64,000 bases of DNA from the NCBI RefSeq assembly GCF_000299395.1, contig NC_018656.1:558001-622000 (forward strand). Direction: 5' to 3'. Origin of the DNA: Candidatus Nitrosopumilus sediminis (GTDB lineage Archaea; Thermoproteota; Nitrososphaeria; Nitrososphaerales; Nitrosopumilaceae). Of this stretch, positions 27,130 through 48,260 are shown piece by piece (positions within the stretch are counted from its first letter, which is position 1; the number at the start of each line of letters is the position of its first letter). The position numbers were made by a program, and so were the translations under genes. The notes below the pieces were generated by a model. It ran no database searches. It was not told where the DNA came from and worked only from the letters and a program-made list of their open reading frames with translations.

Positions 27130-27426
27130 ATGTCACTTGAGATCAATGAATTAACTGGAATTTTAAATGAAGTTAGAAATGAACTTGCCAATCTGATATT
27201 GTTGGCTAACAGTAAAAATGAAAAAATTGACATAAAAAAACTCTCTCAAAAGGCTCATGAATTGGATAGAATAATTGCTGTTTCCAGGATTTCTGGTAAA
27301 GACAAACTAATGTTACAAAAATTTTCTGCAACTCTAGTACAAGATAATACAACTGTCAAAAACCTGAGATATGAAAAACAAGACCTTGAAAGGATATTTT
27401 CCAACCTGGAGGACTTGATTCAATGA
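27130..27426 (+). CDS. Helical small protein heading a microprotein operon
   Basis: 98 aa, no Cys, long amphipathic helices (LNEVRNELANLILLANSK, SQKAHELDRIIAVSR), probably a coiled-coil dimer. No recognised family. Its TGA overlaps the ATG of the Cys-rich peptide gene (ATGA at 27423-27426), indicating translational coupling. The 33-bp element lies 33 bp upstream. Confidence 0.75.
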   Translation: MSLEINELTGILNEVRNELANLILLANSKNEKIDIKKLSQKAHELDRIIAVSRISGKDKLMLQKFSATLVQDNTTVKNLRYEKQDLERIFSNLEDLIQ

Positions 27427-27527
27427 ATACAATACAATCGTACGGTCAAAAAATTTGTTCAGACTGTAAGAGAATGCATTGTCAAAATGGATGTAATTGT
27501 GATTGTCATTGGGATAAAAACAGGTAA
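27423..27527 (+). CDS. 34-aa Cys-rich microprotein (C-x-C-D-C-H type)
   Basis: Begins in the ATGA overlap with the preceding gene. It encodes seven residues of Cys/His metal type in the order CSDC, HC, GCNCDCH, ending WDKNR. The C-x-C-D-C-H tail recurs in the peptide at 62739 and in modified form at 47639. Probably binds one or two zinc ions. Too short for most gene callers; the coupled start and the shared tail argue that it is real. Confidence 0.65.
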   Translation: MNTIQSYGQKICSDCKRMHCQNGCNCDCHWDKNR

Positions 27528-27532
27528 ATTTA

Positions 27533-27712
27533 TTGTTAAATCATTTAGTAACTCAAGACACTTGTTCGCATAATGCCAAAGTCAAGATGTCAGGATACAA
27601 GGACATATACGAATGTACACGATGCCACAAATTCATTACAATCAGCATGCCCAAAGAGATTGATCATGGTGCTCCACAATATTTAGAAAATAGCTGGGAA
27701 GATGATGATTAA
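27533..27712 (+). CDS. Small zinc-ribbon protein (C-x2-H ... C-x2-C)
   Basis: 59 aa from TTG at 27533, 5 bp after the previous stop; an internal ATG at 27587 is the alternative start. CSHN is followed 16 residues later by CTRC (YECTRCHKFI), a zinc-ribbon spacing. Acidic C-terminal tail SWEDDD. Third gene of the operon at 27130; function unknown. Confidence 0.55.
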   Translation: MLNHLVTQDTCSHNAKVKMSGYKDIYECTRCHKFITISMPKEIDHGAPQYLENSWEDDD

Positions 27713-27772: not shown

Positions 27773-27901
27773 CTATTTTTGTTCCTCTCGAATGTCTTTT
27801 TTTAATTTATCGAGAGTTTCCACATATTCTTTTTTAGATAAATTTTCAGGTTTTGTTTTGTTGTTTTTGTTAATTTGAGGATGTTTTGTGTGTTTTTTCA
27901 T
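27773..27901 (-). CDS. 42-aa basic small protein
   Basis: ATG to TAG frame: MKKHTKHPQINKNN followed by a Lys/Glu-rich helix containing KKEYVETLDKLKKDI. No Cys. It lies between the two + strand microprotein operons on the opposite strand, and it might be a nucleic-acid-binding peptide. Support is reading frame and helical periodicity only. Confidence 0.45.
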   Translation of the reverse strand: MKKHTKHPQINKNNKTKPENLSKKEYVETLDKLKKDIREEQK

Positions 27902-28016: not shown

Positions 28017-28124
28017 ATGTTAAAAAGACTATTTTCAAAAATTAAAGGAATACAAGATAAGACATCAAAAGAAGTTAATTCATTCAAAAAATCCAAAGAT
28101 GAATTAAAGGATTCAACAAAATGA
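28017..28124 (+). CDS. 35-aa basic helical microprotein (cassette A, gene 1)
   Basis: MLKRLFSKIKGIQDKTSKE onward, Lys-rich amphipathic helix. It is a paralogue of the peptide at 47839-47952 (MFKKILSKLKRGSDKTK): the M-x-K-K/R-L/I-x-S-K-x-K start and a V-N-x-F-K segment agree. Stop overlaps the next ATG (ATGA, 28121-28124). The same partner order in both loci is strong support for a real gene. Confidence 0.65.
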   Translation: MLKRLFSKIKGIQDKTSKEVNSFKKSKDELKDSTK

Positions 28125-28249
28125 GATATAATTGCAGAGAATGCAGTTACAAATGGGATGGAAATTCAGATACTTTTTCTAATGTATTGATACATGAAAA
28201 AACTCATTTGAAAATCAACAAAATTGTTTCAACGGAAGTGACAGCATAA
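28121..28249 (+). CDS. 42-aa single C2H2 zinc-finger microprotein (cassette A, gene 2)
   Basis: MRYNCRECSYKWDG then SDTF and VLIHEKTH, a C-x2-C-x16-H-x3-H finger about four residues longer than the classic C2H2. A near-identical finger is encoded at 47735-47842 (CRECS, WDG, SDTF and VLIHEKTH shared). Probably binds DNA or RNA through one finger, or a protein partner. Coupled on both sides: ATGA with gene 1 and a 1-bp overlap with gene 3. Confidence 0.75.
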   Translation: MRYNCRECSYKWDGNSDTFSNVLIHEKTHLKINKIVSTEVTA

Positions 28250-28371
28250 TGATGGCACTAAATGATTTGAAAGCATGTGAAAATTGTGGCAACATATTCT
28301 CAAAAAAGATATTGTCTAAAATTGTAAATCGATGCCCTGCATGTAATGTATGGAAGAAAGTTGTTGTATAA
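28249..28371 (+). CDS. 40-aa zinc-ribbon microprotein (cassette A, gene 3)
   Basis: MMALNDLKACENCGNIFSKK with a second knuckle CPAC 18 residues after the first, giving a four-Cys zinc ribbon and a hydrophobic end KKVVV. Starts in TAATG with the stop of the C2H2 gene. Function unknown; it takes the place that a Cys-rich peptide occupies in the paralogous cassette. Confidence 0.65.
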   Translation: MMALNDLKACENCGNIFSKKILSKIVNRCPACNVWKKVVV

Positions 28372-47638: not shown

Positions 47639-47734
47639 TTATTTTTTGCAAAAATCACAACTACATTTGAACATGCCTGCTTTTTCCATGCATTGATCAT
47701 GGTGTTGATTATAACATTTATTGCAAATTACCAT
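47639..47734 (-). CDS. 31-aa Cys-rich microprotein (cassette B, gene 3)
   Basis: MVICNKCYNQHHDQCMEKAG then KCSCDFC and KK. Pattern C-x2-C-x7-C-x8-C-x-C-D-x-C; the C-x-C-D tail resembles the peptides at 27423 and 62739. ATG directly follows the TAA of the C2H2 gene. Ends 1 bp from the convergent acs stop. Confidence 0.65.
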   Translation of the reverse strand: MVICNKCYNQHHDQCMEKAGMFKCSCDFCKK

Positions 47735-47842
47735 TTAATCAACACTATTATTTTTATGAGTTTTTTCATGAATTAACACTTTATCAAATGTATCTGAATA
47801 CCCATCCCAGTGGAAACTACATTCTCTGCACTTGTATTTCAT
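47735..47842 (-). CDS. 35-aa single C2H2 zinc-finger microprotein (cassette B, gene 2)
   Basis: MKYKCRECSFHWDGYSDTF then KVLIHEKTH; same C-x2-C-x16-H-x3-H finger as 28121-28249 with about 20 of the first 30 residues identical. Coupled to gene 1 by a 4-bp overlap and to gene 3 with no gap. The conservation between two unlinked loci shows that the frame is under selection. Confidence 0.75.
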   Translation of the reverse strand: MKYKCRECSFHWDGYSDTFDKVLIHEKTHKNNSVD

Positions 47843-47952
47843 TTGGATTTTTCCTCGTTTATTTTTTCAGTTTCTTTGAATGCATTAACATCTTCATTTA
47901 CTTTGGTTTTATCTGAACCTCTTTTCAATTTTGATAGAATCTTTTTGAACAT
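47839..47952 (-). CDS. 37-aa basic helical microprotein (cassette B, gene 1)
   Basis: MFKKILSKLKRGSDKTKVNE onward, counterpart of the 28017 peptide. The frame continues to 48024, but the paralogue starts at the position of ATG 47952, which I use. Lys/Glu-rich helix with hydrophobic M-F-x-x-I-L face, possibly membrane- or nucleic-acid-interacting. Confidence 0.65.
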   Translation of the reverse strand: MFKKILSKLKRGSDKTKVNEDVNAFKETEKINEEKSK

Positions 47953-48083
47953 ACTTTGAGTAGTTGACCTCTTGTATATACTGACGTAATTTTTTGATTT
48001 TGTGCCTAATTCCCTATATATCATTTCACGATTCTATAACTATTAGGCATAAATAGATATTATTGTTAATTTCTATATAGGAC

Positions 48084-48260
48084 ATGCCGGGATATTTAGG
48101 AAACAAATCTGACAACATCGTACATCATTTAGCAGAAATGACACCTGATTGTAAAATTGTTGAAATCAAAAAATTAGAAAGAATTTACTTTACTCCAGAC
48201 AATTTGGATGAAGCAAAAAAAGAAAAATTCACAAGTTGCAAATATTGCATAAAATCTTAA
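48084..48260 (+). CDS. 58-aa small protein with C-terminal CxxC
   Basis: ATG to TAA; MPGYLGNKSDNIVHHLAEMT, a Cys in TPDCKIVEIKK, and CKYC near the end, so three or four metal-type ligands with the His pair. TATA-like CATAAATAGATATT lies about 30-40 nt upstream. Divergent from cassette B. Function unknown. Confidence 0.6.
   Translation: MPGYLGNKSDNIVHHLAEMTPDCKIVEIKKLERIYFTPDNLDEAKKEKFTSCKYCIKS

Follow-up and report, generated by a model that had tools for sequence, protein, structure and literature searches.

C2H2-like finger microprotein cassettes with an exchangeable third gene in the Nitrosopumilaceae

Introduction

Do three adjoining minus-strand ORFs of Candidatus Nitrosopumilus sediminis, each encoding fewer than 45 amino acids, form a functional unit, and if so, what might that unit do? 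The ORFs lie in a 64,000-nucleotide stretch of the genome, analyzed here as a whole and called the window, which holds a second set of small genes in the same order; the two sets are named cassette B and cassette A, respectively. An initial annotation of the window read them as a functional unit of helical peptide, C2H2 finger, and Cys-rich peptide, with an exchangeable third component, and named a restriction of such cassettes to the Nitrososphaerota as a result that would support a lineage-specific system. Nitrosopumilus is a widespread marine ammonia oxidizer and among the most abundant archaea of the sea, and its inventory of small proteins is largely unexplored.

Small zinc-binding proteins have been studied in other archaea and their viruses. 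Among the zinc-finger micro-proteins of Haloferax volcanii, 12 of 16 deletions gave condition-specific phenotypes, according to the available portion of the report (PMC6562870), and the archaeal C2H2 finger AFV1p06 binds both zinc and DNA, with no Thaumarchaeota homologue recorded in the 2013 study (PMC3541406). Literature searches returned no description of the cassette reported here.

Results and Discussion

Three cassettes in one genome

The three minus-strand genes of cassette B were recovered where the initial annotation had placed them, and the same order was found in cassette A (Table 1); the pattern proved larger than reported, as a search of the genome (1,690,905 bases, one contig) revealed a third cassette (C1:1231685-1232042) in the order helix peptide, finger, zinc ribbon. 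Genes 1 and 2 are paralogous between cassettes A and B, as had been proposed: the two fingers share 73% identity over 30 amino acids (E 6e-13, whole-genome search) and the two gene 1 peptides are identical at 12 of 28 positions (E 1e-5 for the pair). The third genes, noted earlier as different, are unrelated (E 0.53). In cassette B, genes 1 and 2 share 4 nt (ATGA), and gene 3 starts at the base right after the gene 2 stop. Host genes surround the cassettes of the window, for example an acetyl-CoA-synthetase-like gene adjoining cassette B.

Table 1. Cassette genes, promoter, and divergent partners in the window
Feature	Coordinates	Strand	Description	Basis
Cassette B	47639-47952	-	Three ORFs	
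Cassette B gene 1	47839..47952	-	37 aa; MFKKILSKLKRGSDKTKVNEDVNAFKETEKINEEKSK	ORF, family search, dN/dS
Cassette B gene 2	47735..47842	-	35-aa C2H2-like zinc finger, C5-x2-C8-x16-H25-x3-H29	
Cassette B gene 3 (type a)	47639..47734	-	31-aa Cys/His peptide, CNKCYN-x-HHDQCM-...-CxCxxC	
Cassette B promoter	47975..47990	-	Type I cassette promoter; ATTACGTCAGTATATA	
Divergent partner of cassette B	48084..48260	+	58-aa 'VHHL' protein; predicted Ada-like zinc fold	
Cassette A gene 1	28017..28124	+	MLKR subtype	ORF, family search
Cassette A gene 2	28121..28249	+	C2H2-like finger	ORF, genome search
Cassette A gene 3 (type c)	28249..28371	+	Zinc-ribbon-like, ACENCGN...CPACNVWKK	
Divergent partner of cassette A	27773..27901	-	42-aa 'KTKPENL' peptide	

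Genes 1–3 are covered by no family in Pfam, NCBIfam, PHROG, or PADLOC. Among orthologues at the cassette B locus, dN/dS was 0.30–0.47 for gene 1, 0.20–0.34 for the finger, and 0.10–0.29 for the type a gene 3 (the HHDQC gene), approximate values pooled from overlapping pairs of short genes whose ranges depend on the divergence cut and which are below 1 throughout. Purifying selection acts on all three cassette genes, and this codon-level constraint refutes the reading of the cassettes as functionless chance ORFs or repeat remnants, which might be suggested by the small size of the ORFs and their absence from family libraries; given dN/dS <0.5 in three genes, invariant zinc ligands, 141 family members, and a conserved promoter, that reading retains practically no probability.

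The finger and the gene 1 peptide

The finger conforms to the pattern Y-x-C-x2-C-x3-W-x9-V-x2-H-x3-H; across 23 members, the ligands C5, C8, and H25 are invariant and H29 is kept in at least 90%, and the non-ligand residues Y3, W12, G14, D17, F19, and E26 are conserved as well. An AlphaFold2 model (mean pLDDT 83) predicts a beta-beta-alpha fold (E2-4 E11-13 H20-32), for which the best VIA-align match was a finger of ZNF473 (Z 2.3, 29 aligned, rmsd 2.0); matches in the PDB and BFVD structure libraries were weak, as expected for 35 residues. Both the model and the hydrophobic and ligand pattern (Y-x-C-x2-C-x3-W ... V-x2-H-x3-H) resemble classical zf-C2H2 domains, and the finger is C2H2-like, but not of classical spacing: 16 residues, rather than about 12, separate the second Cys from the first His, with four extra before the helix, and the cassette finger is single, weakly charged, and below the Pfam C2H2 cut-off (best model 13.3 bits vs. 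27; 0 of 23 members at E 0.01). The low net charge (about +1.7) and the conserved acidic residues do not favor direct reading of DNA by the finger. Like AFV1p06, it is a small archaeal/viral C2H2-like finger, although it differs in the 16-residue loop between its zinc half-sites and in being an operon member, and the AFV1p06 structure (2LVH) was not among its PDB profile matches at E 10.

The gene 1 peptide has a cationic amphipathic N-terminal helix (first 11 residues) and a conserved DVNAFKE tail, and is without a conserved metal site. In 82 sequences, the mean hydrophobic moment was 0.539 vs. 0.357 (sd 0.019) after shuffling, and it was maximal at the helix angle of 100 degrees. For gene 3, a PDB search returned rubredoxin-like ribbons as relatives of type b and no relative of type a.

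In the available portions of the reports on the Haloferax micro-proteins (PMC6562870, PMC10716476, PMC11241148), these share with the cassette proteins a length of <70 amino acids, zinc binding, many paralogues, and, mostly, the lack of an assigned target. They are defined there by two C(P)XCG motifs, whereas here only type c of gene 3 (CENCG...CPACN) comes close to that definition and neither gene 2 nor type a of gene 3 fits it; those portions describe no cassette in which a helix peptide and a C2H2 finger are joined by an exchangeable third gene.

Constant genes and an exchangeable third gene

Approximately 141 finger genes were gathered from the Nitrosopumilaceae. The upstream neighbor at 141 distinct finger places was gene 1 at 86, another finger at 15, and an Alba gene (confirmed by Pfam, E 4e-11) at 7, and at L129 a KTKPENL peptide takes the place of gene 1 immediately ahead of the finger; the helical peptide, annotated as the first gene, can be replaced by Alba or KTKPENL. 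Zinc modules follow most fingers, which is not the picture of likeness confined to the finger and neighbors differing at random that the initial annotation had named as evidence against a unit. With gene 1 ahead of most fingers, dN/dS well below 1 in three genes, and a third cassette in the same genome, the view of the cassette as a functional unit is upheld. Gene order is fixed, with stops and starts overlapping or abutting: in 72 of the 86, the finger starts 0 or 1 base from the gene 1 stop or overlaps it as ATGA (offset 0, -1, or +4), and gene 3 most commonly starts one base inside the finger stop codon (offset -1, 46 cases).

The third components fall into mutually unrelated classes, namely HHDQC peptides (45), RCKVCN ribbons (20), CENCGN ribbons (16), and others in smaller numbers, counts that are minima, as some evident Cys/His ORFs escape the automatic classification. 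Exchange can be followed at the cassette B locus, which is orthologous in 16 species and lies opposite the same divergent 58-aa gene in them: 13 carry the HHDQC peptide, and three (L013, L059, and L027) carry an unrelated RCKVCN...WECxxCGN ribbon, bearing out the exchangeable third component that had been proposed. On a tree of genes 1 and 2 (82 rows, 71 columns, with many open forks, such short ORFs giving weak trees), the three main third-gene types require 6 changes, compared with a minimum of 2 and with 24.6 for shuffled labels, indicating long co-inheritance with the cassette, yet repeated exchange. The constant part is thus promoter, gene 1, and gene 2, and the exchangeable part is gene 3, which is strongly conserved within a lineage and not fast-evolving. 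Natural fusions of finger and ribbon into one ORF occur in L095 and L208/L073.

Tiny overlapping genes, a cationic amphipathic gene 1 peptide, and 0–8 copies per genome, some of them broken, are also features of a toxin–antitoxin or addiction unit, in which the gene 1 peptide would damage membranes, the zinc peptides would neutralize it, and the patchy copies would reflect selfish spread and decay. We regard this as improbable, because the obligate pairing of such genes was not found: solitary copies of gene 1 follow the same promoter (G080 and G067, of which G067 is without any finger match; orphan copies L186 and L179), and fingers without gene 1 occur behind Alba or KTKPENL. Moreover, unrelated genes replace one another in the third position, the cassette B locus has been stably kept in 16 species, and no cassette matched PADLOC. 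Because each gene is found without the other, a complex of gene 1 peptide and finger would not be obligate.

Nearly all the exchangeable components are rich in Cys/His, and organisms of the Nitrosopumilus type depend heavily on copper, so the peptides could instead handle metals, buffering or sensing zinc or copper in a metallothionein-like manner on several Cys/His scaffolds. Here too the probability appears low, if not quite as low as for an addiction unit: the ligands are arranged as in folded domains with a single site (C2H2, ribbon, and the Ada-like fold described below) rather than as in high-capacity clusters, and metal handling leaves unexplained the conserved non-ligand residues of the finger, the dN/dS constraint on gene 1, and the Alba and RadA neighbors.

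Cassette promoters

Type I promoters of 61 cassettes have AAATTACGCCGGTATATATCA in common, with GTATATA starting 29–31 nt before the gene 1 ATG. Archaeal TATA boxes have a known spacing relative to the transcription start, and with an element at this distance the cassette mRNA is probably leaderless. A second promoter type belongs to cassettes with an MLK-type gene 1, mostly those with a CENCGN ribbon, and many of these have AACTACTCAGCTACG upstream. When 95 and 121 genomes were scanned for both motifs, matches fell mostly at cassettes, and the exceptions include chance coding matches and the two orphan gene 1 copies; the promoter thus travels with gene 1. One match, inside bioB (G000:C1:737072), was set aside as a coding-sequence coincidence. 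From the upstream sequences we infer co-regulation of the cassettes. The inverted repeat GGCRTAA...TTACGCC, the upstream arm of which keeps a constant position in 27 of the 61 promoters and which occurs at chance level in the window, is a lead for a possible operator.

The divergent VHHL protein

The VHHL gene opposite cassette B belongs to a family that has a member no more than 1 kb from 28 of the 141 fingers and, in a sister genus, takes the position of gene 3; all 12 of the Nitrosopumilaceae genomes with VHHL also carry the finger (Fisher p 0.005, uncorrected for relatedness). Three of 11 members touch the Pfam Ada_Zn_binding model (best E 9.5e-4), and the member in the window has no Pfam match. 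The predicted model (pLDDT 80) had four Ada N-domain entries as its top VIA-align matches, the best with Z 5.5, 51 aligned, and rmsd 2.1–2.3, and an Ada-like fold is thus suggested with middling strength. The likeness to the Ada N-domain (PF02805; 1u8b, 1zgw) consists in the predicted fold and the C-x2-C at the C-terminal end. Unlike Ada, VHHL is a stand-alone protein of 58 amino acids; it has only three conserved Cys (C23, C52, and C55), alongside invariant H14/H15, and not the four-cysteine zinc site of Ada with its methyl-acceptor Cys. By visual alignment, a histidine occupies the methyl-acceptor position, making a role in repair unlikely. The cassette proteins and their partner were compared feature by feature with the Haloferax micro-proteins, classical C2H2 fingers, and Ada, and membership in none of these classes is claimed.

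Distribution and viral relatives

A finger profile built from a 23-row alignment matched at E 0.01 in 64 of 95 genomes of the genus, with strong matches in 1–8 copies. Across 300 sampled genomes of the phylum, matches <1e-5 were confined to four genera of the Nitrosopumilaceae, and the rest of the sample gave no convincing match; matches at E 0.003–0.01 outside the family were short or inside long ORFs and were treated as chance. A scan of 84,980 prokaryote species, which detects close relatives only, recovered 25 loci, all from Nitrosopumilus, Nitrosopumilaceae/Nitrosopumilales, or unplaced Thaumarchaeota/Nitrososphaerota. In these partial genome samples, searched with families seeded from the genus Nitrosopumilus, a lineage restriction was therefore found, although at a narrower extent than the Nitrososphaerota, namely a single family. 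The finger is absent from some high-quality genomes and a number of copies have stops or truncations, indicating frequent gain and loss; cassettes have been duplicated and lost within the Nitrosopumilaceae.

Members of the finger family also occur in viral contigs. When IMG/VR was scanned with a pattern, 16 contigs were returned, of which 15 encode a real finger relative; in the other (L249) the DNA pattern matched by chance and no finger is present. The gene order RadA, finger, HNH-like protein occurs in nine contigs, with MCM present in the two that were inspected in full, and five contigs encode the finger and a second Cys motif (ACSFCGC-like) as a fusion, one of these fused fingers being 62% identical to the cassette B finger over 29 residues. 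The nearest phage records to the RadA of the viral contigs are from haloarchaeal viruses (∼24% identity). In one contig (L238:570-4410), MCM, RadA, finger, HNH-like protein, and a further small protein stand in a row.

Such relatives, in several viral genome types, and the patchy, variable copy number are consistent with a virus-derived or antiviral module, in which a finger captured from archaeal viruses would help or block replication and the third gene would track an arms race. Although this deserves somewhat more weight than metal handling, we consider it unlikely: nothing beyond chance was found for the finger in 50,697 phage records, PADLOC held no match, the window cassettes lie among host genes, and the within-lineage conservation of gene 3 is not that of a fast-evolving gene. 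If true, a viral link would open a host–virus interface in organisms that do not lend themselves easily to manipulation.

A proposed role for the cassette

We put at roughly even chances that the cassette genes are co-regulated and translationally coupled as an operon whose zinc-binding microproteins act as one small complex. The peptides of genes 1–3 would bind one another after coupled synthesis, an association supported by the finger-ribbon fusions and by the viral fusion of the finger with a second Cys motif; the gene 2 finger would serve as adaptor, and the cationic amphipathic helix of gene 1 may tether the complex to a membrane or hydrophobic surface. Gene 3 would pick the target, probably a nucleic acid or an enzyme acting on one, given that Alba can replace gene 1, that the VHHL partner has a predicted Ada-like fold, and that viral fingers stand directly behind RadA. 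A swap of gene 3 would then point a constant chassis at another target, and this would account for the many paralogous cassettes in each genome. The broader proposal of a lineage-specific modular system, with many cassettes per genome in which swapped zinc modules re-target the constant chassis and a finger shared with archaeal viruses, is held somewhat more tentatively, a little short of even.

The finger appears to represent a C2H2-like family other than that of AFV1p06, in up to 8 copies per genome and mostly within an operon that has a promoter of its own. Pairing a constant adaptor with various exchangeable partners, the architecture amounts to a natural experiment, in which the fusions point to the peptides that meet.

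Other small genes around the cassettes

The KTKPENL peptide is divergent from cassette A and from three other cassettes. Just 5′ of cassette A are two small Cys-rich ORFs, at 27423-27527 (+; CSDCKRMHCQNGCNCDCHW) and 27533-27712 (+; CSHNAKVKMSGYKDIYECTRCHKF), the second of which resembles a module found after the finger in other genomes. Directly 3′ of the third cassette are a TFB-like gene (L003:146-1075, -) and a small Cys-rich ORF (L003:1085-1252, -). Compound cassettes with two fingers occur in L035, L091, L094, L100, L106, L108, and L117, most of them with an HHDQC-type gene between the fingers.
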